A stretch of DNA of 41,088 nt from Oscillospiraceae bacterium. GTDB taxonomy: Bacteria > Bacillota_A > Clostridia > Oscillospirales > CAG-272. Shown here in pieces: positions 7,810 to 38,445 of this stretch. The stretch lies in NCBI GenBank assembly GCA_015063335.1, contig SVUH01000013.1:1-41088 (forward strand). The letters run 5' to 3'. Made by a program: the position numbers and the translations under genes. Under the pieces are notes generated by a model. The model searched no databases and was not told the origin of the DNA. It saw nothing but the letters and a program-made list of their open reading frames with translations. The first letter of the stretch is position 1. Each line of letters starts with the position of its first letter.

Positions 7810-7846
7810 ATTGGTATAAACCTCCAAATACAATTATTCGCATAAT

Positions 7847-15861: not shown

Positions 15862-16935
15862 TTATATATTATAAAATTCCTTATACCATTCGGCAAATCT
15901 GCGAATTCCTGTGCGAAGGGGCGTCGCGGGCTTAAAGCCGAGGTCTGCCTCAAGCGCGGAGGTGTCAGCGTACGTCACGGGGACGTCACCTGCCTGCATG
16001 GGTACGAGCTCCTTGTGAGCCTCAAAATCATAGTCCTCGGGCAATACCTTCGCGCGAATAAGCTCCTGCTGCAAAATATCTACGAAGTCAAGCAAATTCT
16101 CGGGGCTGCTGTTTCCGATATTATATACCTTGTACGGCGGCAACGGCAAACCGTCCTCACCGTTTTTCTTTTCGGGCGCGTGCTGCATAACGCGCTTTAC
16201 GCCCTCAACGATATCGTCTACGTATGTAAAATCACGCTTGCAATTACCGTAATTGAAGATCTGGATCTTATCGCCCTTCAAGAGCTTATTGGTAAATCCG
16301 AAGTATGCCATATCGGGACGTCCTGCAGGTCCGTAGACGGTAAAGAAGCGAAGTCCCGTAGAGGGAATATTATAAAGCTTGCTGTATGAATGAGCCAGCA
16401 GCTCGTTAGACTTTTTGGTTGCCGCGTAAAGGGAAACGGGATTGTCCACCTTGTCGTCCGTTGAATACGGTACTTTTTTGTTTGAACCGTACACCGACGA
16501 GCTTGATGCATACACCAGATGCTCCACGGTGTTGTGTCGGCACGCCTCCAAAATATTATAAAATCCGATCAAATTCGATTCTATATATACGTCGGGATTG
16601 GTGATGGAATATCTTACACCTGCCTGCGCCGCTAAATTGACGACGACAGCGGGCTTATATTCTGCAAAAATGCTATCAATTAGCGCCTTGTCGGCAATAT
16701 TTCCGCGAACAAAGGTCCATTTACAATCCGCTTTCGCGCTGACTGCCTTTTCAATTTCCGAAAGTCTATATTCCTTGATTGAAATGTCGTAATAATCGTT
16801 CATATTATCAATACCGATAATATGTATGCTTTGATAGGAGCGCAGGAGCTCCAGAACGAGATTGCAACCGATAAATCCTGCGGCGCCCGTTACAAAAATA
16901 GTTTTATTATTTAGATCCACGTTCGGCTTTAACAT
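15862..16935 (-). CDS. UDP-glucuronate 4-epimerase-like NAD-dependent epimerase
   Basis: 357 residues, extended SDR. The NAD site is VTGAAGFIGCNL (residues ~14-25), the catalytic Ser/Thr region ASSSSVYG, and the Y-x3-K motif is in SLYAATKKSNE; LRFFTVYGPAGRPDMA is typical of UDP-glucuronate 4-epimerases. This reaction interconverts UDP-GlcA and UDP-GalA. The neighbouring galacturonokinase-like gene supports a uronate substrate. The start overlaps the preceding gene by 7 bases, with AAGGAG 11 bases upstream. No UDP-glucose dehydrogenase lies in the window. Confidence 0.85.
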   Translation of the reverse strand: MLKPNVDLNNKTIFVTGAAGFIGCNLVLELLRSYQSIHIIGIDNMNDYYDISIKEYRLSEIEKAVSAKADCKWTFVRGNIADKALIDSIFAEYKPAVVVNLAAQAGVRYSITNPDVYIESNLIGFYNILEACRHNTVEHLVYASSSSVYGSNKKVPYSTDDKVDNPVSLYAATKKSNELLAHSYSKLYNIPSTGLRFFTVYGPAGRPDMAYFGFTNKLLKGDKIQIFNYGNCKRDFTYVDDIVEGVKRVMQHAPEKKNGEDGLPLPPYKVYNIGNSSPENLLDFVDILQQELIRAKVLPEDYDFEAHKELVPMQAGDVPVTYADTSALEADLGFKPATPLRTGIRRFAEWYKEFYNI

Positions 16936-17663
16936 ATCCCCCTATACTCCTTTTGTACCTTTTCATAGCTTTCCAAATTGCCTATGTCATAACGCTTTCC
17001 GGGCATTTCCATAGCATGTACCTCCGTCTGCGTACAAAGCCAAGCAATGTAGCTTCCGGGAGCGTCTACGCCACAACCGTTCTCAATGCCCTTTTTAACA
17101 AGACGCGCATCCTCTCTAGTGTAATAATAGAAGGGGGGACACGCCCAGTTCGATTTAGGCTCTGCGGGTTTTTCGGTCAAACTGAGAATTTTATCATTTT
17201 CGTCCACTTCCGCAACTCCGCACTTTTTGAGCTTTTGCTCCGATGCCTCAAAGTAGCGCATAATGCAAGACGTTCCCTTATCCTTGGCGTAGACTATAAA
17301 CCTTGTCAGAGAGAAATCCAAGAGGTTATCTCCTGCAATAACCAGCATATCGTCGTCAATAGAAAGCTCGTCAATTGCGAACTGAATGTCACGTACCGCA
17401 CCAAGGCGGGTTTCATTTGTGCTTGTGCCGTCATCAACAATCGTGATTTTTTGTTTTTTGTCCGCTGCCCAATTTTCAAAATGACAAGCAAATTTATGGT
17501 TGGAAATGACAATATATTCATTCACTAAACCAAGTGAATCAATATCTTCGATCAACCAATCAAGGATCGTTTTGTTCTGCACTGTCAATAAGGGCTTGGG
17601 GAAATTTTCGGTCAAAGGATATAATCTCGTTGCATATCCTGCCGCCAAAATCAAACATTTCAT
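16929..17663 (-). CDS. Sugar-1-phosphate nucleotidyltransferase
   Basis: 244 residues. The N-terminal signature MKCLILAAGYATRLYPLTE (G-x-G-T-R-like loop with Y-A-T-R) and FPKPLLTV mark a nucleotidyltransferase of the RmlA/GlmU/UGPase type; VIAGDNLLDF carries the metal-binding Asp. It makes an NDP-sugar from a sugar-1-phosphate. The start at 17663 overlaps the kinase stop (ATGA), with GGAG upstream; a longer in-frame start has no such support. Placed between a GalA-1-kinase-like gene and a uronate epimerase, it is probably the uridylyltransferase for GalA-1-P or GlcA-1-P (inference). Confidence 0.82.
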   Translation of the reverse strand: MKCLILAAGYATRLYPLTENFPKPLLTVQNKTILDWLIEDIDSLGLVNEYIVISNHKFACHFENWAADKKQKITIVDDGTSTNETRLGAVRDIQFAIDELSIDDDMLVIAGDNLLDFSLTRFIVYAKDKGTSCIMRYFEASEQKLKKCGVAEVDENDKILSLTEKPAEPKSNWACPPFYYYTREDARLVKKGIENGCGVDAPGSYIAWLCTQTEVHAMEMPGKRYDIGNLESYEKVQKEYRGIC

Positions 17664-18832
17664 AATTTTACTCCATCTGCCGTATCGCAAATATGTACTG
17701 AGAATTTTCCTTTTAATGCGGGGAACGCCTTTAAATATTCGTTCGTCACCTTTTCTTCTATGTTCTCGGCGAACGAGGGATCGATCATTGCCATACAGCA
17801 GCCCTTAAAGCCCGCACCGCTAAAGCGACCGCCGTAAATGCCGTCGGTGCGAAGCATGATCTCATAGAGCAATTTCAGCTCATCCGAGCCCGTCTCGTAG
17901 TTGTAGATAGAAGAACGTCCGCTTTCAAATGAAAGCTTGCCGAAAGCTTCAATATCTCCGTTGCGCCATGCCTCGGCGCCTGCTTCTACACGTTTAAATT
18001 CCGTGTACCAATGCTCCGCACGCTTGCGCCAGTTTTCGGGGAGTCTGTCTTTGTATTGTAAATACGTTTCGTAGGGCACGTCGCGAAGAAAGGTCTCACT
18101 AAATTTGCCGTATTCCATACCGCTGAACGCCTTTAACGCATACGCGGCACTGCGACATTCGTCCACGCGCATATTAAATTTACTGCCGGCAAGTGTTCTT
18201 TCCACACCCGAGAAGAAGACCGCGATTTTATAGGGCTTCATGCTCGGATGGGTGGGGATCAGCTCGTAGCTGTCATCCTTGGTGTCAAGGTACAAAAGCT
18301 TATCCTTCTTTGAGAAGACCTCGCAGGACTGGTCGAGCTTTCCGCAGGAAACGCCCACGTACTTGTTTTCAGCCGCCTGTGCCGTAAGTATCATTTCAAG
18401 CTCGGAGAGGTGAATACCGTTCACCTCGCAAAGCGCGGACAAAAAGGCGATAGTCACCGCGGCAGAGGATGAAAGACCTCCTATTGGCAGAGAGCCCTCG
18501 ATAACACCGCAGAGCCCCACCTTCAAGGGATATTTTTGCGATAGCATCAACGTCGCGCCACGCAAATAGTCTGCCCAATCATTTTCTTTTTGATCGGGTA
18601 CGGACTGCACGTGCCATTGAGCACGCTTGTTAAATTGCAAGGACGTCAATTCAATTACGCCGTTTTGCTTCGGCGCGTACGCAATATGAATGCCCTTGTC
18701 AATTGCAAAGCCCGTTATTTTGCCGTACTGATGGTCGCTGTGCGCACCGATCGGGCAAACGCGGTAGGGGCAGAACGCCACGGCCGTCGGGTCTTTTTTA
18801 TAGGTTTCATTAAATCTTTGAATACTTAACAT
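17660..18832 (-). CDS. Galacturonokinase-like GHMP kinase
   Basis: 390 residues. The galactokinase signature is altered to CPYRVCPIGAHSDHQYG (residues ~21-37): the usual G-R-x-N-L-I-G-E-H is replaced by P-Y-R-x-C-P-x-G-A-H-x-D-H-Q, as I recall from plant galacturonokinase. The ATP loop is LPIGGLSSSAAV and the C-terminal GHMP motif GGRFSGAGFKGCC. Predicted reaction: D-galacturonate + ATP to GalA-1-phosphate. The ATG at 18832 overlaps the upstream stop (TGATG) with GGAGAAAG in front; an upstream TTG is less likely. The nearby nucleotidyltransferase and epimerase complete a UDP-GalA supply unit. The family resemblance is from memory, not a search. Confidence 0.75.
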   Translation of the reverse strand: MLSIQRFNETYKKDPTAVAFCPYRVCPIGAHSDHQYGKITGFAIDKGIHIAYAPKQNGVIELTSLQFNKRAQWHVQSVPDQKENDWADYLRGATLMLSQKYPLKVGLCGVIEGSLPIGGLSSSAAVTIAFLSALCEVNGIHLSELEMILTAQAAENKYVGVSCGKLDQSCEVFSKKDKLLYLDTKDDSYELIPTHPSMKPYKIAVFFSGVERTLAGSKFNMRVDECRSAAYALKAFSGMEYGKFSETFLRDVPYETYLQYKDRLPENWRKRAEHWYTEFKRVEAGAEAWRNGDIEAFGKLSFESGRSSIYNYETGSDELKLLYEIMLRTDGIYGGRFSGAGFKGCCMAMIDPSFAENIEEKVTNEYLKAFPALKGKFSVHICDTADGVKL

Positions 18833-20022
18833 CAATACTTTCTCCAAACCATTTTATCTACTACGCCAGTGTAGGACTGAATGATCTTTACGACCTTTGT
18901 AGAAACGTTTTCTTCTACGTAATCGGGTACGGGAATGCCGTGGTTTTCATCGCTTGTCAGCTCCACGGCGGTATCGACTGCCTGCAAAAGATGCTTTTCG
19001 TCAATGCCCGCAAGCACGAAGCACGCCTTGTCAAGCGCCTCGGGGCGTTCTGTGCTTGTACGGATACATACGGCGGGGAAGGGCTTTCCGATGCTCGTAA
19101 AGAAGGAGCTTTCCTCGGGAAGTGTGCCGCTATCCGAAACGACGGCGAACGCATTCATCTGCAAATTGTTGTAATCGTGGAAGCCCAAGGGCTGGTTCTG
19201 AATTACGCGCTCGTCAAGGTTAAATCCGCTTGCCTCCAAGCGCTTTCTGCTTCTTGGGTGGCAGCTATACAAAATGGGCATATCGTATTTTTTCGCCAAT
19301 TTGTTTATTGCCGTAAAGAGAGAAACGAAATTCTTTTCCGTGTCAATGTTTTCCTCTCTGTGCGCTGAGAGAAGAATATATTTCTTTTTCTCAAGTCCGA
19401 GGCGAGAGAGCACGTCGCTCGCTTCTATCTCGGATAGGTTGCTGTGCAAAACCTCAGCCATAGGAGAGCCCGTAACGTACGTTCTTTCCTTAGGCAATCC
19501 GCATTCCGCCAAATAGCGGCGAGCGTGCTCGGAATATGCTAAATTTACGTCGGAAATAATATCGACGATACGGCGATTGGTTTCCTCGGGTAGGCATTCG
19601 TCCTTGCAACGGTTTCCTGCCTCCATATGGAATATCGGAATATGCAATCTCTTTGCGGAAATAGCGGAAAGACAGCTGTTCGTGTCTCCCAGGATCAAAA
19701 GCGCGTCGGGCTTGCAAGCCGCCATAAGCTTATACGAGCAGTTGATGATGTTGCCGACGGTCGCGCCAAGGTCGTCGCCGACCGCGTCCATATATACCTC
19801 GGGATCGGCAAGCTTCAGGTCCTTGAAGAATACGCCGTTAAGGTTATAGTCATAGTTTTGACCCGTGTGCGCCAAAATGCAGTCAAAGTATTGGCGGCAT
19901 TTGTTTATAACGGCAGCAAGACGGATGATTTCAGGTCGCGTGCCAACGATGATCAACAGCTTGAGCTTGCCGTTATCCTTAAATTTTACGTCGGAATAAT
20001 CCAATTTAATTTTAGTTTCCAT
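18832..20022 (-). CDS. capG: UDP-N-acetyl-hexosamine 2-epimerase, CapG-like
   Basis: 396 residues of the non-hydrolysing UDP-GlcNAc 2-epimerase (WecB-type) fold. Motifs are IVGTRPEIIRLAAVI (residues ~25-39), LLILGDTNSCLSA, FHMEAGNRCKDECLPEETNR and VSDSGTLPEESSF. The close order capE-capF-capG argues that it converts UDP-N-acetyl-L-pneumosamine to UDP-N-acetyl-L-fucosamine, the last step of that pathway, rather than making ManNAc. It lies 30 bases after capF and overlaps the next gene by 1 base. Confidence 0.85.
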   Translation of the reverse strand: METKIKLDYSDVKFKDNGKLKLLIIVGTRPEIIRLAAVINKCRQYFDCILAHTGQNYDYNLNGVFFKDLKLADPEVYMDAVGDDLGATVGNIINCSYKLMAACKPDALLILGDTNSCLSAISAKRLHIPIFHMEAGNRCKDECLPEETNRRIVDIISDVNLAYSEHARRYLAECGLPKERTYVTGSPMAEVLHSNLSEIEASDVLSRLGLEKKKYILLSAHREENIDTEKNFVSLFTAINKLAKKYDMPILYSCHPRSRKRLEASGFNLDERVIQNQPLGFHDYNNLQMNAFAVVSDSGTLPEESSFFTSIGKPFPAVCIRTSTERPEALDKACFVLAGIDEKHLLQAVDTAVELTSDENHGIPVPDYVEENVSTKVVKIIQSYTGVVDKMVWRKY

Positions 20023-20052
20023 ACTATTATACCTCGCACGTGCTGTGACTGT

Positions 20053-21255
20053 TTATTCTACGATTTCAAAAAATGTGTCGGGATGGTTAGGATCAAATTG
20101 CTCATTTGCCCACATTACAGTTACCAAATTTTCTGTATTTGAAAGGTTTATAATATTGTGGGTGTATCCGGGTAGCATGTGTACTGCTTGAATTTTTTCA
20201 CCGCTTACCTCAAAATTCAACACTTCGTCTGTGCCGATCTTGCGCTGTTGTATGAGACCGTGTCCCGCAACAACAATGAAAAACTCCCATTTCGTATGAT
20301 GCCAATGCTGTCCCTTTGTAATACCGGGCTTGGAAATATTGACGGACACCTGTCCGCATTTTTCCGTCTTCAAAAGCTCCGTAAAGCTTCCGCGCGCGTC
20401 AACGTTCATCTTAAGATCAAAGGCGGCTTTTTCTTTTGGCAGATAGCTCAAATAGGTCGAGTACAGCTTCTTTGCAAAGCTGCCGTCGGGTATCTCGGGG
20501 ATAACGAGCGTTTCGCTCTGTGAGCGAAAAGTGTGCAATAAATCAACGATCTCGCCAAGTGTGACCTTGTGCGTGGTAGGAGCAAAACAATATTTGCCCA
20601 TATCACTTTGGACGGGCGTTAATCCGTCGTAATTACAACGATGTCCTTTCCCTTCGAGTAGGTCAAGCATTTCTGTTACTAAATCGTCTATATACAGAAG
20701 CTCAAGCTCGGTCGCTCTGTCGTTGACAGTAATCGGCAAGTCGTTCGCAATGTTGTTGCAGAAGGTTGCCACAGCACTGTTATAATTCGGTCTGCACCAC
20801 TTGCCGAAAAGGTTTGGGAAGCGGTAAACATATACATGTCCGCCACCTTGGCGCTCATAATCGAAGAACAGATCTTCTCCTGCCTTCTTGCTTTTTCCGT
20901 ACTCACCGTCAGAATATCTGCCGATAAGTGTGGCTTGAATAGAAGATGCAAGCATTACTGTGCAGTTGTTATTGTACTTTTTTAAGGTATCGAGCAGAGT
21001 TGACGCAAAGCCGAAATTGCCCTGCATAAATTCTTCCGTGCTTTTCGGGCGGTTTACCCCCGCAAGATTAAATACAAAATCCGCGTGCTCGCAATATGTG
21101 TCCAAATCGGACTGCGACGAATCAATATCGTATTCGAATATTTCTTCAATGGCAAGGGACGGACGGGTCTTATCCTTTCCGTCTCTTAAATTTTTTAAAG
21201 CGGCACATAGGTTTCTTCCAACAAAGCCTTTTGCGCCCGTAACAAGAATTTTCAT
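20053..21255 (-). CDS. capF: CapF-like bifunctional UDP-FucNAc pathway enzyme
   Basis: 400 residues, the full length of CapF. The N-terminal SDR domain has VTGAKGFVGRNL (residues ~5-16), FNLAGVNRP and YGKSKKAGE (Y-x3-K). The C-terminal cupin (residues ~270-400) has KGQHWHHTKWEFFIVVAG with the metal-binding histidines. In CapF the cupin acts as 3-epimerase and the SDR as NADPH-dependent 4-reductase on the CapE product. It starts 9 bases after capE. Confidence 0.9.
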   Translation of the reverse strand: MKILVTGAKGFVGRNLCAALKNLRDGKDKTRPSLAIEEIFEYDIDSSQSDLDTYCEHADFVFNLAGVNRPKSTEEFMQGNFGFASTLLDTLKKYNNNCTVMLASSIQATLIGRYSDGEYGKSKKAGEDLFFDYERQGGGHVYVYRFPNLFGKWCRPNYNSAVATFCNNIANDLPITVNDRATELELLYIDDLVTEMLDLLEGKGHRCNYDGLTPVQSDMGKYCFAPTTHKVTLGEIVDLLHTFRSQSETLVIPEIPDGSFAKKLYSTYLSYLPKEKAAFDLKMNVDARGSFTELLKTEKCGQVSVNISKPGITKGQHWHHTKWEFFIVVAGHGLIQQRKIGTDEVLNFEVSGEKIQAVHMLPGYTHNIINLSNTENLVTVMWANEQFDPNHPDTFFEIVE

Positions 21256-21264
21256 GGCTTTTCC

Positions 21265-22302
21265 TTATTTTTTCAATTCGTCTTTAATGTATTGCAATGC
21301 CGCAATTTTCGCCTTTGTTTCTTCTACCGTTAAAAGCTGTGTATTGTTGGAGTTAAATTCCGTCAAGGGATTACGCTCTACGTCACCACGATTGAAGTAT
21401 TTGTCATAATTCAAGCCGCGTTTGTCGCAAGGCACGCGATAAAAGTTTCCAAGGTCAATTGCGTTTGCGCATTCTTCGTTTGTCAACAACGTTTCGTACA
21501 TTTTTTCACCGTGACGAATACCTATTACCTTGATATTGTTCTTATCTCCGCCAAACAGCTCGCATACAGCCTCTGCCTGTGTTTGAATGCTGCAAGCAGG
21601 AGCTTTCTGCACAAGAATATCACCGCTTTCACCGTGTTCAAATGCAAACAAAACAAGGTCAACTGCTTCTTCCAAAGACATAATAAATCTTGTCATTGTA
21701 GGATCGGTAATGGTTATGGGCTTGTTTGCCTTGATTTGTTCGATCCAAAGAGGAATAACACTACCGCGAGAACACATTACGTTTCCGTAACGGGTACAGC
21801 AAATTTTTGTTTTTTCGGGAGAAATCGTGCGAGATTTTGCAACGATAACCTTTTCCATCATCGCCTTGCTTGTTCCCATTGCGTTTACAGGATACGCCGC
21901 TTTGTCGGTTGAAAGGCAAACCACATTTTTAACACCCGCCTCAATTGCTGCCGTTAAAACGTTTTCTGTTCCGATAACGTTGGTCTTTACCGCTTCGATC
22001 GGAAAAAATTCGCAAGAGGGAACTTGCTTTAATGCCGCCGCATGGAATATGTAATCGACATCGTGCATAGCATTTCTAACCGACTGAATATCTCTTACGT
22101 CGCCAATGTAGAATTTAATTTTATCTGCCACCTCGGGCATTTTTGCCTGAAACTCGTGACGCATATCGTCCTGCTTCTTTTCATCACGTGAGAAAATACG
22201 GATCTCACCTATATCTGTTTTTAAAAATCTATTAAGCACGGCATTGCCGAACGAACCCGTACCACCTGTGATCAGTAACGTTTTACCTTTAAACAACGAC
22301 AT
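21265..22302 (-). CDS. capE: CapE-like UDP-GlcNAc 4,6-dehydratase / 5-epimerase
   Basis: 345 residues, the size of single-domain FlaA1/CapE dehydratases. Visible features: LLITGGTGSFGNAVL (NADP site, residues ~8-22), HAAALKQVPSCEFFP, STDKAAYPVNAMGTSK, in which the usual SDR tyrosine position is methionine (M-x3-K) as in CapE/FlaA1. It turns UDP-GlcNAc into the 4-keto-6-deoxy L-arabino intermediate. The start follows the pyruvyl transferase stop by 1 base, with GGAG upstream. With capF and capG it forms a complete UDP-L-FucNAc module. Confidence 0.88.
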   Translation of the reverse strand: MSLFKGKTLLITGGTGSFGNAVLNRFLKTDIGEIRIFSRDEKKQDDMRHEFQAKMPEVADKIKFYIGDVRDIQSVRNAMHDVDYIFHAAALKQVPSCEFFPIEAVKTNVIGTENVLTAAIEAGVKNVVCLSTDKAAYPVNAMGTSKAMMEKVIVAKSRTISPEKTKICCTRYGNVMCSRGSVIPLWIEQIKANKPITITDPTMTRFIMSLEEAVDLVLFAFEHGESGDILVQKAPACSIQTQAEAVCELFGGDKNNIKVIGIRHGEKMYETLLTNEECANAIDLGNFYRVPCDKRGLNYDKYFNRGDVERNPLTEFNSNNTQLLTVEETKAKIAALQYIKDELKK

Positions 22303-22303
22303 A

Positions 22304-23410
22304 TTAATTTACTCCTATTTTATCAATGCTTTCTCGCATATATTTTTTTGATTCATTTACTTTGGATTGCATTAATTTGTTGACAGCGTTATAGTCAATA
22401 ACGCTGTGGGCGTTTTCAAAATTTCTGTCTCCGATTTTGAATTGCTCTAAAAGATCAATGAGCCGCTCTCTCTTTGCCAAACCCTCTTCCGAATCACATC
22501 CCAACAGTGTAAATTGCTTTTGGAATAAAATTGAAAAAGCCAAACCGTGAAATGAGTTTGTGAAGACATACTCGGCATTAGCGATATGATTCAAAAACTC
22601 CTCGGGAGAAAGGCCGAATTCCTTTTTAAAGCCGTTCAAGGAGTTTTGCCTGTTGTAAGGCAGGATAACGACCTCAAGGCCCCTACTCTTGGCAAACTCC
22701 GCGATCTTTTTCTTCTCAGCTTCGGGATATCCTATCAAGGCATACACTAAGCAATACTTTCTCTTTTGCGGTCTTTCCCTTACAAAATCATTCCAATAGT
22801 TATTCAAAAGGAATACTGGATCAAGCACTTGCATCGCATCCAGACCCATAGAATTAACGATGGAAACGCCGCTCTGCTCGCGTATACCGATCGCGCGGTA
22901 TTTGGATAGATCAGCCTTCATTTTTGACAAGATAAGATCATCGTTTATTTCCGAAATTCCAAAGCTTGAGCCGTAGGATATTCGCGGCTTCTCATCGGGA
23001 AGAAAATCGAACATATAATTCGACGAAAAGACCTTGTGATACGGATTCCATATCTGATCTCCTCCGCTGACGAAAAGGTCGTAGTCCTCAAGCTCACTTA
23101 AGAGCTTCTCCTCGGAGTCGTAATACTTGCTTATTTGCAGATTCCTTTTGCGAAACGCCTTGAACTTTTCCGCCTTTTCTTGCATGCTTTTCTTTTTTAA
23201 GAGGGTAACCGCCTTATAGCGGACTCTCTCGCAAAGAGTTGGCGTTTGGGCGACCGATGCATAGTGCGACGACTTTCCGTTTACCATTCTTTTTATGTGT
23301 AAAAGCTCTGCGGTGTGCCCCTCTATCTCAAGATATTTTTGAGTGGCGTATGCCTGGAGCACAGTTCCGTAGTTTTCTGATTCAAAAAAAGTTAAAATCG
23401 CGATCTTCAT
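22304..23410 (-). CDS. Polysaccharide pyruvyl transferase family protein
   Basis: 368 residues. MKIAILTFFESENYGTVLQA at the N-terminus, VSGGDQIWNP, YGSSFG and FTNSFHGLAFSILF (residues ~275-290) are typical of the PF04230 (CsaB/WcaK) family. These enzymes transfer pyruvate from phosphoenolpyruvate to a sugar hydroxyl as a ketal, which adds negative charge to surface glycans. Some family members may have other roles, so the substrate is open. It is 11 bases downstream of the poly-G gene and 1 base from capE. Confidence 0.85.
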   Translation of the reverse strand: MKIAILTFFESENYGTVLQAYATQKYLEIEGHTAELLHIKRMVNGKSSHYASVAQTPTLCERVRYKAVTLLKKKSMQEKAEKFKAFRKRNLQISKYYDSEEKLLSELEDYDLFVSGGDQIWNPYHKVFSSNYMFDFLPDEKPRISYGSSFGISEINDDLILSKMKADLSKYRAIGIREQSGVSIVNSMGLDAMQVLDPVFLLNNYWNDFVRERPQKRKYCLVYALIGYPEAEKKKIAEFAKSRGLEVVILPYNRQNSLNGFKKEFGLSPEEFLNHIANAEYVFTNSFHGLAFSILFQKQFTLLGCDSEEGLAKRERLIDLLEQFKIGDRNFENAHSVIDYNAVNKLMQSKVNESKKYMRESIDKIGVN

Positions 23411-23421
23411 AACTTTTCCTT

Positions 23422-24386
23422 TTACTTGTTTTTATAATTCCGATAATATTTAAACCAACAAGCCCACGCACGTATTAAGGTTATAAGCTTGGTATTTTTT
23501 ATTGGTCGCTTTATGTAGTAATACATGAAATCTTTGAAGGAAAGCTTCTCCTTGCTTTTTGTTCTTCGATCCGTAGGATCTTTATAAGCCAAATCGGAAG
23601 AAATAACTCCCAAATTATTATAATTTACGTCTGTTATTCCATTCATCTCAAATATTTCATGCGTTCGACTAAGCCATTTTCGAGATGTTATGCCGACACC
23701 ATCTACAAATTTGTTGTAATATTTAAATACTGGTGCAGAGTCATTGATCCTATAATGTATTACATCGTATCCTGCTACAATTGAACGAATATTTGAATTT
23801 ACTTCAAAAGCCCAAGCATCTTCTTTCTTTACCAAAAGCTTTTCCAAAAAGTCTTTTCGGTAAAGAATAATCATCATATTTGTCCGTCCTTTGTTGAAAC
23901 GGTTTGCTTTCCTGTATGCTAGTTCACTGTCAAATTCTTTAGGATAGCTACTTCCTCGTTTGATTGGGTGGAAATAGATCCCACCCCATTTAGGCTTCTT
24001 TTTCATTCGTTCAAACGCATCTAAAAAAGCTTTCTCATTGACTTCTTCGTGCACGAAGTAATCTTCAAGGCTGAAAAGAATGTAATCGCTTTCAATTTGC
24101 TTTAAGGCATATTGAAGCCGTTCTGTCCAAGTTTTTCCCCTACCTGTATTAATTGTTTTAACGGTCATAAAGTCACAGTTAAAATTTTTTTCTTCGGTCA
24201 TTAGATAACAGTTTTGGGGATGATTTTTCCAGTTTTTATGGATTAGTTTAAAATAAGGTGACCATGCGTCTTCATATAGGTCGCAACTTAATATGAGTAG
24301 GGATATTTCTTGGAGGTTATGCTCCCCCCCCCCCGGGGGAGGGAATTGTCGAGATTTAAGCCGTTACATTTTTTGAAGTTTTTCAT
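23422..24386 (-). CDS. Glycosyltransferase-like protein, out of frame at a poly-G tract (probable phase-variable gene)
   Basis: The conserved part is open in one frame from the G tract to 23422: it reads ISLLILSCDLYEDAWSPYF, then NHPQNCYLMTEEKNF, and later LFSLEDYFVHEE, where the acidic residues could be the DxD-like metal site of a GT-A fold. The first in-frame ATG after the tract (24201) has no RBS and cuts off the first strand. An ATG at 24386 starts a frame (MKNFKKCNGLNLDNSLP) that enters the tract one base out. With 11 G it stops after 32 codons; with 12 (or 9) G it joins the conserved frame as a 321-residue protein with a short Gly run. The upstream coding bases, as well as those before MTEEK, read as normal protein. 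Function: probably transfers a sugar to the surface glycan (family by resemblance only). Confidence 0.7.
24324..24334. repeat. Homopolymeric G/C tract (C11 on + strand)
   Basis: Eleven C on the + strand, followed by five G, so the minus strand reads C5 then G11. This is the only homopolymer of this kind in the window and it lies in an AT-rich neighbourhood. It sits at codons 18-22 of the glycosyltransferase-like gene. Confidence 0.9.
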
Positions 24387-24430
24387 TTTCTATATTTGTT
24401 TTTCGCCTTTCTATTGTTTTTTTCATTCAT
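24383..24430 (-). CDS. Possible 15-codon coupling ORF between SDR and glycosyltransferase
   Basis: An ATG at 24430 overlaps the SDR stop (TAATG) and has GGGAG 7 bases upstream. It codes for MNEKNNRKAKNKYRK and ends in a TGA that overlaps the ATG at 24386 (ATGA). It could pass ribosomes from the SDR gene to the glycosyltransferase start, which has no good RBS of its own. It may equally be chance or scar sequence. Confidence 0.3.
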   Translation of the reverse strand: MNEKNNRKAKNKYRK

Positions 24431-25260
24431 TATAAATCTCCCATCAAGCCCAAGCTTCTGCCGCCGTCAACAGCCAAATTCTGACCGGTAATGAAATCGG
24501 CTTCCCGTGAAGCTAAAAACGCGACGCCGTGTGCAATATCCTCGGGACGGCACAACTGATCCAAAACGTTTTTGGAAGCAGAGGAGCTGAGCTTTTCGTC
24601 AGTTGCATTTTCTCTCGGCACAAGCCCTGGAGAAACGCAATTTACCGTAATTCCGTACTGCCCAAGCTCAATTGCCTGGGATTTCATAAGTCCAAACAAT
24701 CCAGCCTTTGCGGCTGCATATTCCGCATGCTTTGTTTTTCCCTGCATGCCTACGATAGACGAAACATGAATTATCCTACCGTGCCGGGATCCTTTCATAT
24801 ATTGAACTGCTTCGCGGGATGCCAGTATGGCACCGCGCAGATTAACAGCCATAAGCCCGTCGATGTTTTCAATGGACTGTTCGTGCAAATATCTCTTTTC
24901 CGTACGGGCGCTGTATCCGGCATTATTAACTAATACGTCGATCTTACCGTGCGTAGCAGCTACCTCTTTCATTGCTCGCTTAATAGAAGCCTCGTCTGCA
25001 ACGTCCATGACGGCATAATCAACGTCTAAGCTTTTCTCTTGAAATTGCTTTTGCAAGGAAATCAGCTTTTCTTCCGATCTGCCCGTTAAAACGACCGTTG
25101 CACCTTCTATTGCGAAACGTTGACAGATAGCTTCTCCTATTGATCCGGTAGCGCCTGTAACGAGCACCACCCGATCCTTAAATCGTTGCTGCTTGTCTAC
25201 GTATACGTACTGAGTTTCTTTTTTTACAACAATACGTTGTTTCTTTAAAAAATCAAACAT
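24430..25260 (-). CDS. SDR family oxidoreductase
   Basis: 276 residues. A ~27-residue N-terminal extension (MFDFLKKQRIVVKK ...) precedes a classical SDR: VVLVTGATGSIGEAI (cofactor site), LVNNAGYS (NNAG), VSSIVGMQGKTKHAEYAAAK (Ser ... Y-x3-K), and a C-terminal ITGQNLAVDGGRSLG as in FabG-type enzymes. It reduces or oxidises a carbonyl/alcohol with NAD(P)H. Its start overlaps the MenD-like gene by 8 bases, so the two probably act in sequence on the same metabolite. Substrate unknown. Confidence 0.85.
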   Translation of the reverse strand: MFDFLKKQRIVVKKETQYVYVDKQQRFKDRVVLVTGATGSIGEAICQRFAIEGATVVLTGRSEEKLISLQKQFQEKSLDVDYAVMDVADEASIKRAMKEVAATHGKIDVLVNNAGYSARTEKRYLHEQSIENIDGLMAVNLRGAILASREAVQYMKGSRHGRIIHVSSIVGMQGKTKHAEYAAAKAGLFGLMKSQAIELGQYGITVNCVSPGLVPRENATDEKLSSSASKNVLDQLCRPEDIAHGVAFLASREADFITGQNLAVDGGRSLGLMGDL

Positions 25261-26965
25261 TTTTACCTCGTAAGATCGTTTTTAAAATGTTCTTTACAGA
25301 GCTTTCCTTTTCCTCAAATTGCGCATATGATTTTTTTAAAACCTGCGCGTCTTGCTCCTTGTCAGTGAATACCTCAATAAAGATGGGTCTTTCCGTTGCT
25401 TCGTTCATGCGAATGAGCGCCGCACTGAGGTCCTGCTCATTGCGGACTGCAATATATTCAAAGCCGCGGGATTCTACCCAGCCCTTTGCTGTTGCATCGT
25501 GTCCTGCCGCAATGTTCTGATCTAATGTTGATACGTTCTTTATTCCTACGGTGTAGTGAAACAGCGTTGCTCCACTGTTATTGCTTAAAATTATTCGCAT
25601 ATTAGGGGAGATATAATTATTCCAAAGCGAATTCATATCGTAGAAAAAGCTTAAGTCTCCGATCAACAAAAATGCTTTTTTGTCATTATTGCAAGCCATT
25701 CCCATATATGCCGATGCCGATCCGTCTATGCCGTTTGCGCCGCGGTTGCAGTATACCTCTATCGAAGGATCAAGGTCAAAATGCGAAACCAAACGCACGC
25801 TTGTGCTGTTTGCGATATGAAACGCAGAGCCCTTGGGAAGCGCATTTACTAATTCTCTTACAGCATAAAAATTGCAGTAGGGAAGTTCAATATTATTAAA
25901 GTCTATTCCCGCAGTTTTGCTTTGCCAAAGCTCTAAGTAGGCGGAATCCACTTGCGCCTTACTTCCTGTCTTGACCATTTTTTTCAAAAATTCTATTGGA
26001 GATGCCTCAAATACCTCCTTAATACTGAATAAGGGGTCTTGCAGGCTTCCGTCAGCATTTACGCACCAGTGGTCAAACATTCCCTTGCAGCTTTTCAAGT
26101 GACTACGCACGTATGATAAATATCCGCTGTTTAAGGTGATCACGATCTCCGGCAACAGTGTGCTTTTAAAGCTTTCCGCTGAGGTTACCCTTGAGAGCGA
26201 AAACGTTGAGACGGCGCCCTTGCAATGTAAATTTGACAAGGGATCAACGGCAATGATCGCGCCGTACATAGAGGAAAATTCCTCAACAATGCGAATATCC
26301 TCGTCTGTTAACGACGGTGACTGACCGTACAGCACCAACACTCTTTTGTTTTTCAATTGTTCTGCGTATGAGGTCCAGTCGTCGTAGAGATAATGGCGTT
26401 TTATTTTTTTGACCTTGGGTAATTCGGTAGTATTGAAAACAGACAGTCCCTTTTCAATGGGAATGTTAATTTGTACCGGCGCTCCGCCGTGATGATTCAA
26501 TTCGAGAATTGCTTCGTTGATCATTCTGCCGCACGTATATTCGTCGACCTCGTCTTTTATCATAGGAAGCTGTACGATCTTTCTTGTTACCTTTTCAAAG
26601 CCGTCAGTCTGAGGAAGCATCTGCTCCTCATCTTGATTCAAATAGTAAGGATTTCGGTCCGCAGAAATGACCAGTAGCGGCAGCTTTTGATAAAACGCTT
26701 CCGTTACCGCAGAATAATAATTGCAAACAGCAGTACCAGACGTGCAGCAAATCGCAACGGGTTCTCTGTAACGCTGTATCAAGCCTATCCCAAAAAAGCC
26801 GGCGCTTCTTTCATCTACAATGGAATACGTTTCGAAAAACGGATCAACCTCCAAAGAGTGCGCTATCGGAACGTTTCGGTTGCCGGGGGATAATACGACC
26901 CTGCGAATATTATGCTGTTTAAGTAAAGAAACTAAAATTTGTACACTTTTTATGTCTGAATACAT
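25253..26965 (-). CDS. MenD-like thiamine diphosphate enzyme
   Basis: 570 residues with the three-domain layout of ThDP decarboxylase/carboligases. The N-terminus has VVLSPGNRNVPIAHSLE and IVDERSAGFFGIGL (residues ~23-65), matching the MenD S-P-G-x-R and D-E-R-S-A regions with the catalytic Glu. The C-terminal part has RGANGIDGSASAYMG and LIGDLSFFYDMNSLWNN, the ThDP/Mg2+ motif (G-D-x-S-F ... N-N). True MenD joins a 2-oxoglutarate-derived unit to isochorismate, but no menaquinone gene is present here. In this operon it more likely makes a branched or extended building block for the glycan (inference). Confidence 0.8.
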   Translation of the reverse strand: MYSDIKSVQILVSLLKQHNIRRVVLSPGNRNVPIAHSLEVDPFFETYSIVDERSAGFFGIGLIQRYREPVAICCTSGTAVCNYYSAVTEAFYQKLPLLVISADRNPYYLNQDEEQMLPQTDGFEKVTRKIVQLPMIKDEVDEYTCGRMINEAILELNHHGGAPVQINIPIEKGLSVFNTTELPKVKKIKRHYLYDDWTSYAEQLKNKRVLVLYGQSPSLTDEDIRIVEEFSSMYGAIIAVDPLSNLHCKGAVSTFSLSRVTSAESFKSTLLPEIVITLNSGYLSYVRSHLKSCKGMFDHWCVNADGSLQDPLFSIKEVFEASPIEFLKKMVKTGSKAQVDSAYLELWQSKTAGIDFNNIELPYCNFYAVRELVNALPKGSAFHIANSTSVRLVSHFDLDPSIEVYCNRGANGIDGSASAYMGMACNNDKKAFLLIGDLSFFYDMNSLWNNYISPNMRIILSNNSGATLFHYTVGIKNVSTLDQNIAAGHDATAKGWVESRGFEYIAVRNEQDLSAALIRMNEATERPIFIEVFTDKEQDAQVLKKSYAQFEEKESSVKNILKTILRGKNV

Positions 26966-26977
26966 ACTATTTCTCCA

Positions 26978-28045
26978 TTACTTATTCTTCATCAATTCTT
27001 TGTATTGCTTTGTTCTTGCCGCGTAGCGCTTTTTGGAAAGCAGATAGAAGGTAAGGGGAAGCTTGAATCTAAAGCAAAACGTATATAGCTTATAGATTCG
27101 TCCCATCGAGTCCGTGTCAACCTCTTTCCAATTACAGATCTCTGCGGATTCCTTCATTATCTGTCTTATGGTCGAAATCCGTTCGCGTAATTTTCTGACA
27201 TTGTTCGGCTTTGTTTCATTGTCGGCACACTCAAACGCCGTCAATGCGGCGCGCAGGCGCATTTGCTTATGAAAATCATATCGCGTATAGCCGTTTACGA
27301 CCTTGTCGAGATACTCAACCCAAGGCTTTAAGAGACCCCACATATTTTTTGTATATCCCTTGGACAAGGACTCAAAATTCATGCGGTTATGATATAAATA
27401 TCTGTCACCAAGATAATAGTAACTATCCGCATGTATCGTACATTCAAAGGTGAAGGGAAGGTCCTGACAACGGCGGAAGCGGGGATCGAACTTAATGCCG
27501 TGCTCGTCTATCAGCGCCTTGCGGTAAATTCTTAGCCAGTTGCACCAACGAAGCGTGCTTTCGCTCTTGTTTTCATCAAAGCTTGCCAAGACTCTCGGGA
27601 AAATAGTCTTTTCCATCTCGGCTCTGTTGTAAAATCCGGGAGCAAAATAGATCTGTTCCTTTTTGGACTCGTCGCGATACACGTTGCAGAATACGATGTC
27701 CGCGCCGTGTTCCTTTGCCTTTTCGTACATTTCCTCGTACATGGAAAGCTCCAACCAGTCGTCAGAGTCGACAAATCCCACGTATTCGCCCCTTGCTACG
27801 TTAAGGCCTGCCTGTCTTGCTGCCGCCAAGCCTGCATTTTGTTGGTTTATCAAAACAACTCGGCTGTCAAACGCAACGTATTTATTGCATATCTCGTCCG
27901 AGCCGTCGGTAGAGCCGTCGTTAACCAAAATGATCTCAATATCCTTAAGCGTTTGACCTATGACTGTATCAAGGCACTGCTCCAAATATTCCTTTACGTT
28001 ATAAACGGGAACGATAACGCTCACCAAAATTTTGTTATTTTCCAC
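26978..28045 (-). CDS. Glycosyltransferase family 2
   Basis: 355 residues. The N-terminal GT-A domain is typical: LVSVIVPVYNVKEYLEQCLD (residues ~7-26), IEIILVNDGSTDGS, and VGFVDSDDWLE with the D-x-D motif. The C-terminal ~140 residues are basic and helical. It transfers a sugar to the growing lipid-linked repeat unit on the cytoplasmic side. Sugar specificity cannot be read. The start overlaps the preceding gene by 11 bases. Confidence 0.88.
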   Translation of the reverse strand: MENNKILVSVIVPVYNVKEYLEQCLDTVIGQTLKDIEIILVNDGSTDGSDEICNKYVAFDSRVVLINQQNAGLAAARQAGLNVARGEYVGFVDSDDWLELSMYEEMYEKAKEHGADIVFCNVYRDESKKEQIYFAPGFYNRAEMEKTIFPRVLASFDENKSESTLRWCNWLRIYRKALIDEHGIKFDPRFRRCQDLPFTFECTIHADSYYYLGDRYLYHNRMNFESLSKGYTKNMWGLLKPWVEYLDKVVNGYTRYDFHKQMRLRAALTAFECADNETKPNNVRKLRERISTIRQIMKESAEICNWKEVDTDSMGRIYKLYTFCFRFKLPLTFYLLSKKRYAARTKQYKELMKNK

Positions 28046-29162
28046 TTACGGCTCCTTTTTCCAGCTTCTGAAACAGTGTTTCATACTGTACGATTTTTTT
28101 GTCGTTGCTTAAAAGCTCCTCGGGCATTCCATTTATATTAAACTGCTTTATTTTATCGGGATCGGATAATATTTCCCGCATTTTCTGCAAGATCGAATTT
28201 TCGTCGTTGCTTACTATGTACCCGTTATATCCATCTTTGAGTTGTTCGTTTATCCCCGAAAACTCTGTTGCGATCACGGGCTTTTGCATCATCTTCGACT
28301 CGTTAACGACGCCGCACAGCCCCTCGTAATAGGACAGCACCGCCACGAGGTCCGCACCCTTATAGTAGACGAACGGATCGTTCGTTTCTCCGCAAAGGAT
28401 CATCGTCTGCGAGAGCCCTGCGTCCGCTATTTGGCGAGATAGCTCCTCGCGGTCAGGCCCGTTTCCGACCACGTACCAGCCAAAAGCGTCGCCAAACTCC
28501 TCGTGGAGCGCCTTGCAAACGCGCACCATGCGAAAGAGTCCCTTTGCCTTGTCCGCAAGACGGCAGACAGTCAAGATTTTGAGCTTGCCCTCACCGCTTG
28601 ACATGATCTCGGGGACGGGACCGATATTTTCGGGAACGTCGGGCAATATGTTATAGATAGTCAGCGCCCTGTCCGCATACTGCGGATAGCATTTGCAAAA
28701 CGACTGTGTGGTGTATTCGGATACGCCGACGTAGGCGTCAAACGCACCACCGTAGCGCTCCATATAAGAGGCGGTCTTGCCGTACGAGCCGGTTTTCTCG
28801 ACGTCGTTTCTCAAAAGCTGATAATACTGCTTTGCGCGGATCTTTTTGAATAATATCTTGGGGTCGTATCCAAACAGACCGCTGATTACAACGTCGTATT
28901 CGTTTTTCTTTAAGCCCATCTCGCGAACGCGGCACTTGAGCGTTTCGACGACCTGGGTGCATTTGCTCATAGGCTTGCCGTTTGATTTCTTTAAATGAAT
29001 TCGATTGATCTTGGGACTCAACTCGTGCTCAAGCGTACCGCCGTCCCACCTTAACAAGAGCGTAACGGCATGCCCCTTTTCCACAAATTTGTTGAGAAGA
29101 CGTACGGTCGAGCGTTCCGCCCCGCCTATATTCAATTGGCTGTAATAATAAAGTATTTTCAT
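28035..29162 (-). CDS. Glycosyltransferase family 4
   Basis: 375 residues, GT-B fold. The N-terminus MKILYYYSQLNIGGAERSTV is the usual acceptor-domain start of GT4 enzymes. KILTVCRLADKAKGLFRMV marks the donor domain, and ALSYYEGLCGVVNESKMM holds the E-x7-E motif. It adds a sugar with retention of configuration. The ATG at 29162 (AGGG in front) is preferred over a GTG two codons earlier. Confidence 0.86.
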   Translation of the reverse strand: MKILYYYSQLNIGGAERSTVRLLNKFVEKGHAVTLLLRWDGGTLEHELSPKINRIHLKKSNGKPMSKCTQVVETLKCRVREMGLKKNEYDVVISGLFGYDPKILFKKIRAKQYYQLLRNDVEKTGSYGKTASYMERYGGAFDAYVGVSEYTTQSFCKCYPQYADRALTIYNILPDVPENIGPVPEIMSSGEGKLKILTVCRLADKAKGLFRMVRVCKALHEEFGDAFGWYVVGNGPDREELSRQIADAGLSQTMILCGETNDPFVYYKGADLVAVLSYYEGLCGVVNESKMMQKPVIATEFSGINEQLKDGYNGYIVSNDENSILQKMREILSDPDKIKQFNINGMPEELLSNDKKIVQYETLFQKLEKGAVSGK

Positions 29163-29180
29163 AAACACCCTATTTTCGTT

Positions 29181-30371
29181 TTATTTGATTTCATTTAAGA
29201 AGCTTATTATTCGCTGCGTCTGTGCTGCTGATGATTTTTTCTCTCTTACAAAGCGGAAAGCAGAGGTTGCTTTTTTAAGGCGCTCATCAAAGGGAATATC
29301 CAATACCGAATCCAAATCACGAGCCAAAGCATCGGCGTCATTCGAATCGCAGGTATAGCAATACTGATAATATTCCTCGGGAATTCCTTCAAGACGGGTT
29401 AAGACTGCGGGAGTTCCGGATGTAAAATATTCGAACGTTTTAGAGGGAAAGGAATACCTCGTCAGCAGATGATCTGCTTTTCGGGGATTGATCAGAAGGG
29501 TAGATTCTCTTTCCATAGACAATATTTCACTATTCGGTAAGCTTCCCATATATTTTATGCGGTCGCATTTCTTAGCGTATTCATTTATCGTTTCTACCGC
29601 GCTTCCGCTACCGCACAAAACAAGATCAACGTTTTTGTGCTGCATACGCAAAAAGGCGTCCAAAAGCGTTTCTATTCCGTTTTCGGGAATCAAATATCCC
29701 GCGTAGAAAATCTGCTCGTTTCTTTCGCTTCGGTTTATTTGCTCCTCGGTGATGCGAATGTCGGGCAAGCCCTCTACTACAATATAAGGCTTGTTCTTCG
29801 GATTGGTTTTTTCGTTCATATGCTTGGAGAAAAATACGTATCCGTCCATTCGATTGTTGAGCGTTGTGTTAACGGTTCTCTTTATCAATTGCTGTATTTT
29901 TCCACCCGTCAAAATTCTATACTGAGGGATCTCCGAGCAAATAGTGACGATCTTTACTCCTTTTTTTGAAAACAGGAAAGGGTAAAGCAAAGCCAAATTC
30001 GTTGCGTAGGTTAAGACAATGCGTTCTTCTCCCTTAGTATCTCTCAACCACTGCTTAACGAGTCCTTTGATCTCGTCAAACGCTGAGAGGCTCGGGATAG
30101 TTCCGCCACGCTTTTTCCAAACGTAGCTTAGCTCCATTCCGCAAAAGGTGTCCGTATTCTGCCTTGCGGCTGTATCATCCATATACGACAAGATAGAAAC
30201 TATTTTAACGTTCTGAGGATCTACGCACGTCGATATGTTACTGAGCAGCTGTGTTTCGTATTTGTGAGCCGCGATCGACATATCCTTATCCGTGCGCGAA
30301 AGCTCTAAAAACAATTCCTCGGTGCAAAAATATCCAAGATATAAAATTTTTAAATTTTTATCGTTGTTCAT
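29181..30371 (-). CDS. Glycosyltransferase, GT-B fold
   Basis: 396 residues. The donor-domain pattern is present (IFYAGYLIPENGIETLLDAF, VLCGSGSAVETI, and RYSFPSKTFEYFTSGTPAVL, where the late Glu sits at the nucleotide site), but the N-terminal half is divergent. It resembles GT4 proteins that act in exopolysaccharide clusters. It overlaps the polymerase gene by 14 bases. Confidence 0.78.
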   Translation of the reverse strand: MNNDKNLKILYLGYFCTEELFLELSRTDKDMSIAAHKYETQLLSNISTCVDPQNVKIVSILSYMDDTAARQNTDTFCGMELSYVWKKRGGTIPSLSAFDEIKGLVKQWLRDTKGEERIVLTYATNLALLYPFLFSKKGVKIVTICSEIPQYRILTGGKIQQLIKRTVNTTLNNRMDGYVFFSKHMNEKTNPKNKPYIVVEGLPDIRITEEQINRSERNEQIFYAGYLIPENGIETLLDAFLRMQHKNVDLVLCGSGSAVETINEYAKKCDRIKYMGSLPNSEILSMERESTLLINPRKADHLLTRYSFPSKTFEYFTSGTPAVLTRLEGIPEEYYQYCYTCDSNDADALARDLDSVLDIPFDERLKKATSAFRFVREKKSSAAQTQRIISFLNEIK

Positions 30372-31611
30372 TAACTGATGTTCCGTTCTTTGTTTTTGTT
30401 AAAGCATGATTGTCCGCGATATAAATGACGTAGGGGAAGAATAAGAACAAAGCTATTGACAGCTCTTGCGAGTAGGGATTGAAAAATGAAAAGAAGATGA
30501 AAATGAGCATTAAGAGCTTTATTGTTTGCTTGCTTTGATTCTTGTAAATTTCAAACGGGAATTTCCAGAAAACGTAGAAATACAGTACTGAAGTCAGCCA
30601 TCCGTATTTTCCGATCATATCAAATACGGCCGAATGACCTCCGCCGCCTCTCTGCCCACAAAGAAGCGAGCCAATGATCGGATACTGATAAATCAATTCA
30701 AACGAATCGCTGTAGTTAGAGAAGCGCTCGTCTACCGTAACGCCGCTTGCGTTACCGTCTAAGAACAGCATCTTGAATTCGGAGATTTTTTGACCGTAGG
30801 CGGGGTTCTCGCCGAATATTTTCGATAAGGTGTCGAAAAATATTTCCACAAGATCTTGGTAAAATATCGCAAATACCAATATGCTTCCGAAGAATATGAT
30901 GCAACGGACGGGAGTGATCCTTTTGAACATTATTACCAGGCCACAGCCCGCAACTAAGCAGAAGTTAGCAATCATATATCCCGAAAAGGTGGTCATTATA
31001 ACGATTAATACGAAAGCAATCAAAAACAAAGTATCCATAATCGGATTCAGCTTTATTTTCTTAATTATTTTATATAAGAGCATCGGAGCAATCAAAACGC
31101 ACATATAAATATAGCCGTATAATCCTACGTTTTTGTTTGCTTCAAAGCGTCCCTCCAACCATTCGGAGTTCGCTATACGTGCTGCATAGGGGTCGTTGAT
31201 GAGCGCGTACGTGGTCGTGCAACAGAAAATGATCATTCCAATCAAACAAGCACCTATCAATATTTGGAGAAACGTTTTGTCTGTTTGCATATAGTATGCT
31301 GCCATCGCTCCACATATCAGCATAATGATAAACTGCAAGTTTCTTATAATTGCAGTGGTAACCGGAAATACAAACAAGCTGTACAAAATCATTAGCGCGG
31401 CGCACAGAAAGCCTATAAGGCAAAATTTGCCGATTTTATTGAATAGGGAAGTGTCACGAAACAGTACAAACAGAAACCACAGCGCTGCGCACCCTACCGC
31501 CAATACACGGTAGATCGTACCAACCTGCACGGGTGGAATAAATATCCATAAAACCACGTACAGAGCACAAAGTTTTTCAAGATTTATTAATTTAAATATC
31601 TTGCTTAGCAC
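30358..31611 (-). CDS. wzy: O-antigen polymerase-like membrane protein (Wzy-type)
   Basis: 417 residues with about 10-12 hydrophobic segments and a larger extracytoplasmic loop (residues ~270-330: EIFFDTLSKIFGENPAYGQ, then GQRGGGGHS), as in O-antigen ligase/polymerase (Wzy_C-like) proteins. It would link repeat units outside the membrane. The start is GTG at 31611, one base after the flippase stop. Wzy sequences diverge widely, so the call rests on topology, length and a flippase neighbour. Confidence 0.75.
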   Translation of the reverse strand: MLSKIFKLINLEKLCALYVVLWIFIPPVQVGTIYRVLAVGCAALWFLFVLFRDTSLFNKIGKFCLIGFLCAALMILYSLFVFPVTTAIIRNLQFIIMLICGAMAAYYMQTDKTFLQILIGACLIGMIIFCCTTTYALINDPYAARIANSEWLEGRFEANKNVGLYGYIYMCVLIAPMLLYKIIKKIKLNPIMDTLFLIAFVLIVIMTTFSGYMIANFCLVAGCGLVIMFKRITPVRCIIFFGSILVFAIFYQDLVEIFFDTLSKIFGENPAYGQKISEFKMLFLDGNASGVTVDERFSNYSDSFELIYQYPIIGSLLCGQRGGGGHSAVFDMIGKYGWLTSVLYFYVFWKFPFEIYKNQSKQTIKLLMLIFIFFSFFNPYSQELSIALFLFFPYVIYIADNHALTKTKNGTSVNEQR

Positions 31612-31612
31612 T

Positions 31613-34041: not shown

Positions 34042-34043
34042 GT

Positions 34044-35300: not shown

Positions 35301-35310
35301 TTACGTTTTC

Positions 35311-36450: not shown

Positions 36451-36451
36451 T

Positions 36452-38397: not shown

Positions 38398-38445
38398 AAT
38401 CAAATCTCCATATTTTCAAATAATATATATTATAATACATTATAT

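Follow-up and report, generated by a model that had tools for sequence, protein, structure and literature searches.

To our knowledge, most known cases in which surface sugars are switched by strand slippage come from Gram-negative pathogens, with a few from commensals. Among the closest described systems are the poly-G loci of Campylobacter, located in capsule, lipooligosaccharide, and flagellar-glycan genes (PMC6321876, PMC8437040, PMC3068675). As described in excerpts of these reports, they resemble the locus considered here in having G tracts of similar length in glycan genes and a change of frame as the switch, and some relatives here likewise carry several tracts per genome. Unlike here, the phylum is a different one and length variation has been shown, whereas we infer it; many of our tracts also share C-Gn-TA flanks (a C before the G run and TA after it), and some lie near promoters. 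The pilus switch of Bifidobacterium breve (bbr_0113 and bbr_1889; PMC9187656) is found, like our locus, in a Gram-positive gut commensal. According to the excerpted text, its tracts are G10 and G11, the G11 tract slips strongly, and slippage fuses two frames into one surface protein; the differences are that these are pilus genes of an actinomycete and that slippage was measured there by maximum depth sequencing.

The polysaccharide locus and its G11 tract

The window (the whole stretch of 41,088 nucleotides that we analyzed) contains a surface-polysaccharide locus in which a homopolymeric G tract separates a possible start codon from a predicted glycosyltransferase domain. The features concerned are as follows.

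15862..38403, minus strand: surface-polysaccharide locus (open reading frames and domain matches)
24430..25260, minus strand: upstream short-chain dehydrogenase (adh_short_C2; domain match)
24383..24430, minus strand: 15-codon frame whose ATG overlaps the dehydrogenase stop (TAATG) and whose TGA overlaps ATG 24386 (ATGA) (sequence)
24288..24386, minus strand: short frame that opens at ATG 24386, crosses the tract, and stops at codon 33, with 32 residues, the putative OFF-state leader (sequence)
24324..24334, minus strand: G11 homopolymer, the proposed slippage tract, with C5 before and AG after (sequence)
23422..24321, minus strand: conserved frame of the predicted GT-A glycosyltransferase, 299 residues after the tract (sequence, homologues, and predicted fold)
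23422..24201, minus strand: 259-residue open reading frame from ATG 24201 (MTEEK...), as recorded in the protein database (open reading frame list and database)
22304..23410, minus strand: downstream polysaccharide pyruvyl transferase (PS_pyruv_trans; domain match)

The locus also encodes an initiating sugar transferase (Bac_transf), a flippase-like protein, GT1 and GT2 glycosyltransferases, sugar-nucleotide enzymes, and a DegT-type aminotransferase, together with a weak O-antigen ligase match below the family cut-off. The tract gene, with its predicted GT-A fold, lies inside this locus and was counted as a surface-structure gene. Elsewhere in the window, a leucine-rich repeat (LRR) protein (6769-7833, minus strand) resembles the adhesin HupY/LrrG, far below the curated cut-off.

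On the minus strand, CCCTCCCCC is followed by the G11 run at 24334-24324 and then by AGCATAACC. A scan of the whole window found this to be the sole G or C run of at least 7, and no A or T run of at least 8. Overlapping G8 matches numbered 4, against 0.27 expected, and this count was reached in 0 of 100 shuffles, by which a chance origin was rejected; the tract is long enough to slip and beyond chance, as in slipped-strand contingency loci. Its flanks include the C before but AG rather than TA after, which places it outside the C-Gn-TA class. No promoter-like site was found on the minus strand within 24050-24650, and a promoter at the tract was accordingly rejected; the RNA fold of the tract region was not unusual (z -0.45).

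Re-derivation from the sequence reproduced the tract, the out-of-frame ATG 24386, and the stop at codon 33 on which the original prediction was built. The conserved frame (HNLQEISLLILSCDLYEDAW...) can be followed upstream as far as a TAA that precedes the tract by 32 bases, with no ATG, GTG, or TTG in between, and it has no in-frame start codon upstream of ATG 24201. When tract lengths from 9 to 13 were written out, 9 and 12 connected ATG 24386 to the domain, giving the continuous protein that had been predicted for these lengths (320 and 321 residues, respectively), and 10, 11, and 13 left the domain without a start. Tract length would set expression by frame only, with one of the three length classes joining ATG 24386, the predicted start, to the domain.

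The structure of the 299-residue frame was predicted at a pLDDT of 88.8. The best structural matches of this predicted fold in the PDB were SpsA, TarP, and TarS (E-values of 1.7e-7, 3e-7, and 7.8e-7, respectively), the latter two being teichoic-acid enzymes; query-normalised TM-scores to GT-A enzymes were only about 0.4-0.5. From this model, the product is predicted to be a GT-A glycosyltransferase. Pfam gave no match for the 259-residue open reading frame, NCBIfam none for the 299-residue frame, and the PDB none by sequence, while TIGR04440 was weakly matched by 1 of 14 alignment members (E 0.013). Three elements of the predicted fold are missing, wholly or for the most part, from the open reading frame that starts at ATG 24201 (strand 6-11, helix 14-30, and most of strand 37-42), and this shorter product is therefore unlikely to function by itself.

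Homologues and the start of the gene

A protein database search found 13 homologous proteins. One of them (P0002) is the window's own 259-residue form, which occurs on 7 contigs as one member sequence; no longer form was among the matches listed in this search of proteins, and the gene is known from these contigs in its OFF (short) form only. Among the seven closest homologues, identity to the conserved frame was 63-76% for six and 52% for the seventh. The original prediction that this frame continues above ATG 24201 held for the 299 open codons after the tract, but conservation did not extend to the leader: the 22 residues before HNLQ had no counterpart in the 10 full-length homologues (P0003-P0005, P0007, and P0009-P0014), whose starts lie 4 to 14 residues ahead of the conserved IS/VT strand, i.e., at about the tract position. 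There is also no clear Shine-Dalgarno sequence ahead of ATG 24386. Since the 15-codon frame overlaps both the dehydrogenase stop and ATG 24386, translational coupling through it could possibly stand in for a clear ribosome-binding site.

Two homologues, P0006 and P0008, are recorded as starting at the MTEEK methionine like P0002, which makes 3 of the 8 closest family members (including the window) known from this start only. The same locus was found in a goat-caecum Clostridia bacterium (L001, from genome G001), where the dehydrogenase and the downstream gene order are kept. There, the gene lacks the tract and has its own ATG after GGAGG; about 32 codons further along, a single additional base breaks its frame. 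The extra base (L001:9995-10130) lies in a short G3A5 stretch away from G tracts, and the remainder of this orthologue is intact. Judging from this locus, the only one read, the MTEEK start of P0006 goes with an indel unrelated to the tract. L001 counts against a switch because it indicates that the gene can break in other ways. Homologues that lack the tract and start at MTEEK had been named beforehand as evidence against switching; the missing long leader and the records of P0006 and P0008 agree with that expectation in part.

Other searches for relatives of the gene returned little. There were no matches among plasmids (near and protein modes) or viral contigs, and one distant match (24.6%) among phages. 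A search of genome contigs gave no match with a single protein and one locus, L001, with alignment A2. Whole-genome searches with A2 gave matches in 2 of the 395 genomes of the family to which G001 belongs, in 1 of the 21 genomes of the G001 genus, and in none of the 30 genomes of the G033 genus, the last in a search with no positive control.

Long G tracts in related genomes

By RecG identity to the window, the nearest genome was G033 (74%), followed by G094 (65%) and G001 (60%), all of which belong to the 395-genome family set. An H-G11 match was present in 63 of these 395 genomes, with 130 places listed. Eighty-nine distinct tracts were taken in and 41 places left out, namely 35 that lie roughly 100 bases or less from the start of a contig and 3 each of G160 and G020 further in. 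After 23 of the 89 tracts, many of them contig-end poly-G and probably artefacts, had been dropped for lying at most 100 bases from an end of their stretch, 66 interior tracts of at least 11 Gs were retained, with lengths of 11 (46), 12 (13), 13 (5), and 14 (2). Poly-G of up to 53 bases was also seen at contig ends of several family genomes (L052, L054, L058, L065, L067, L115, and others); these are probably sequencing artefacts and call for caution in counting tracts.

Among the interior tracts, with two that adjoin N runs omitted, a C stood before 48 of 64 and TA after 24 of 64. In the same loci, C preceded 47-50% of the G4, G5, and G6 runs and TA followed 4.3, 3.6, and 0% of them, respectively; for the seven runs of length 8 to 10, the ratios were 86 and 43%. 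TA is the telling flank, since short runs already have the C in about half of cases but TA in hardly any. C-G9-TA occurred 23 times (14 in G152), C-G10-TA 20 times, and the backwards pattern 0 times in 43 genomes, which were picked mainly for long tracts, with G081 and G217 added, so that these counts are not family rates. Enrichment of C-G10-TA across the phylum was rejected (7 matches, in 7 of 398 genomes, vs 4 for the backwards control). Exact-G9 interior runs served as a control, taken from loci that covered 30 of 34 places in one set and 9 of 9 in another; here C stood before 7 of 21, TA after 2 of 21, and both flanks occurred in 0 of 21. Given these last two results, the C-Gn-TA class is local to some lineages. 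It is richest in G115, G316, G152, and G232, none of which is among the 30 genomes of the genus of G033, and the strongest examples (G115, G316, and G095) are family members outside those 30. Within that genus, 3 of the 30 genomes have an interior tract of at least 11 Gs, located in a promoter spacer (G033), at a ribosome site (G370), and between genes (G337), and none of these 3 tracts interrupts a glycan gene.

Tracts of at least 9 Gs within coding regions were assigned a frame from the longest open frame on each side. Sixteen glycan genes were interrupted, comprising GT2 (5), Caps_synth (1), a weak Galactosyl_T match (1), Acyl_transf_3 (6), and hexapeptide transferases (3). Their frame states were as follows.

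In frame (4): L211:6943, L178, L208:6660, and L175
Out of frame (12): L211:5823, L211:4614, L209:8501, L210:7778, L209:13000, L210:9010, L084, L176:1503, L089, L209:10293, L211:11530, and L208:9443

This proportion is near the one third expected under free drift of lengths. In L084, L178, and L209:13000, the sequences before and after the tract matched one and the same family, while in the remaining glycan genes a match was obtained on one side only; L208:6660 has just 17 codons past the tract, and L211:5823 was assigned to GT2 by resemblance alone. L081 and three tracts in L212, where the frame ends near the tract, were left out of the 16. Three acyltransferase genes (L176:1503, L209:10293, and L211:11530) share the window's layout, in which a leader (some 10 to 43 codons in these genes) is followed by the tract and then by the domain. 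In G115, one GT2 paralogue has G10 in frame (L211:6943), and two have G11 out of frame after the same left flank (L211:4614 and L209:8501, with 93 and 85% identity to the former over 200 nt upstream, respectively); with the tract at one shared site, these paralogues come nearest, by sequence, to showing a single switch in its two states. Among non-glycan genes, a MaoC-like gene (L118) and an MT-A70 gene (L150) carry in-frame tracts, and a protein kinase with LRR domains (L167, from G232) is split out of frame by C-G9-TA.

Further tracts were seen in less readily assigned genes. The 14 C-G9-TA tracts of G152 (L168, L173, and L196-L207) all lie in one genome, and in L200, L203, and L206 the tract stands, by eye, just behind a lipoprotein-like signal sequence, with no Pfam match downstream. 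In G232 (L179, L186, L190, and L193) and G024 (L134 and L181), C-G10 or C-G11 occurs some 10 codons after the start of very short frames that, by eye, have sequences like ribosome sites, and several of these frames resemble one another within one genome; they are possibly phase-variable small peptides.

A near-perfect TTGACA-TATAAT (sigma-70) pair was present on the G strand at most 60 bp from 13 of the 66 tracts, compared with 85 of 4000 positions drawn at random from these loci; among the exact-G9 runs, 2 of 21 had such a pair nearby. The positions of these tracts were as follows.

Inside the -35/-10 spacer: L050, L104, and L158 (spacers of 19, 19, and 20 bases, respectively)
Upstream of the -35 box: L079, L092, L097, L106, L116, L129, L130, and L133
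Downstream of the -10 box: L071 and L120

The tract of G033 is a G11 run between TTGACA and TATAAT, and that of L071, in the same genus, is a G12 run 5 bases ahead of a TTG start, at the ribosome-site position. The genes downstream of the promoter tracts and of other intergenic tracts were the following.

Glycan, surface, and related genes: chain-length determinant with ATPase domain (L079), initiating sugar transferase (L116), LRR_5 (L106 and L130), SLH (L133 and L152), camelysin-like (L134 and L163), CBM9 protein (L097), and ABC transporter (L050)
Genes without a surface domain: DUF362 ferredoxin-like (L092), DUF4190 (L120), secretion ATPase (L121), and AAA ATPase (L151)
Genes without a family match: L104, L129, and L158

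A TTGTGCA-n-TGCACAA palindrome, possibly an operator, was noticed beside the G tracts of L107, L129, L130, and L163, and by eye also of L066, L068, L077, and L106; it was counted at 4 of 66 tracts and 7 of 4000 random positions, the pattern having been chosen after the data were seen.

Interpretation and relation to known systems

The original prediction called for a comparison of tract length and frame in relatives, and this comparison revealed G tracts that recur within glycan genes and close to promoters of surface genes, with paralogues found both in and out of frame. Because of this family-wide pattern, we regard slipped-strand phase variation as the best reading of the window's tract, with moderate confidence, and the tract probably belongs to a group of hypermutable on/off switches in the family. 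Replication slippage would alter the length of the G11 tract; one in three length classes would set ATG 24386, if it is used, in frame with the GT-A glycosyltransferase, which would add or decorate a sugar of the surface polysaccharide. Since a single length class joins ATG 24386 to the enzyme, cells would thereby switch that sugar step on and off, and the sequenced population would be OFF. The family comparison favours this phase-switch interpretation, while several observations stand against it: only the OFF form is seen (7 contigs), with no second length of the tract, L001 is tractless and broken by another indel, the start is weak, the leader is not conserved, the TA flank is missing, the three interior tracts in the genus of G033 hit no glycan gene, and exact-G9 runs, too, can lie near promoters (2 of 21).

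One alternative is a decaying gene that has lost its start region, with the native ATG and ribosome site having lain at the tract position, so that the gene would be a young pseudogene and the tract a non-switching by-product. Homologues do begin at about that position, the MTEEK-only records of P0006, P0008, and the window can be read this way, as can the break elsewhere in tractless L001, and all 7 contigs carry the short form. We nevertheless consider decay unlikely, given that what is left of the frame is uninterrupted and well conserved, that the 11-G run is beyond chance in the window, and that similar tracts in the family are located in glycan genes and close to promoters of surface genes, some of them in frame. 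A regulatory tract in an untranslated leader, whose length tunes initiation (as a poly-G ribosome site) or transcription, would require translation from a downstream non-standard codon. No ATG, GTG, or TTG exists in the conserved frame between the tract and the domain, the minus strand has no promoter-like site in 24050-24650, and the fold is ordinary; these points make such a role improbable, even though the G12 run of L071, the tracts in promoter spacers or near a -35 box in other relatives, and the tract's position about where homologues begin would all suit it.

An error of sequencing or assembly, affecting the tract length or the tract itself, is the least probable of the explanations weighed here, and we give it little credence. 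Contig-end poly-G in family genomes such as G020, G093, G372, and G389 is suggestive of such errors and presumably a product of two-colour sequencing; the window's tract, by contrast, is internal, 16.7 kb from the nearer window end and with coherent gene order on both sides, and the same short protein occurs on 7 contigs, though these may share reads. Length calls are described as error-prone in G tracts in one report (PMC9187656).

Beyond the window, we think it reasonably probable that this family of uncultured gut Clostridia has a poly-G contingency repertoire with a C-Gn-TA signature, of which the window's tract is a member. The repertoire would work in two modes, namely frame switches in glycan genes (glycosyltransferase, acyltransferase, and capsule-synthesis genes) and tracts in the spacer or upstream of promoters of surface genes (capsule operons, S-layer, LRR, and camelysin-like genes). 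If true, it would explain within-species surface variation that is flattened by metagenome assemblies, and it would matter for how phages and the immune system recognise commensals. The switch reading predicts mixed tract lengths at the named loci, testable in existing reads.

Poly-G and poly-C switches in promoter spacers occur in Neisseria and similar bacteria. The tracts between the -35 and -10 boxes in L050, L104, and L158 are alike in position, whereas the window's tract is outside any recognisable promoter. Akkermansia muciniphila is likewise a gut commensal with a phase-variable capsule and, according to the excerpted text, has long mononucleotide repeats at the end of an acyltransferase gene in its capsule locus cps1, but the switch demonstrated there is an invertible element and the organism belongs to Verrucomicrobia (PMC13343947). 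Phase variation in Clostridia is represented by the invertible promoters of Clostridioides difficile, which act by site-specific inversion and not by homopolymer slippage; the passages of the 2025 review that describe them contain no poly-G phase variation in Clostridia (PMC11868660). The original prediction knew of no described case in the capsule operons of Clostridia, and no poly-G phase variation in this class was among the matches listed from the open-licence literature, as far as titles and the starts of abstracts tell. GnT hotspots, in which G runs followed by T are mutation hotspots, differ, in the excerpted account, in giving T-to-G substitution rather than slippage, and the window's tract is followed by A (PMC12344412); by analogy, such behaviour may bear on the growth of C-Gn-TA tracts. 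Overall, the kind of switch proposed here is already known, while the group in which it occurs and the C-Gn-TA signature appear to be new.
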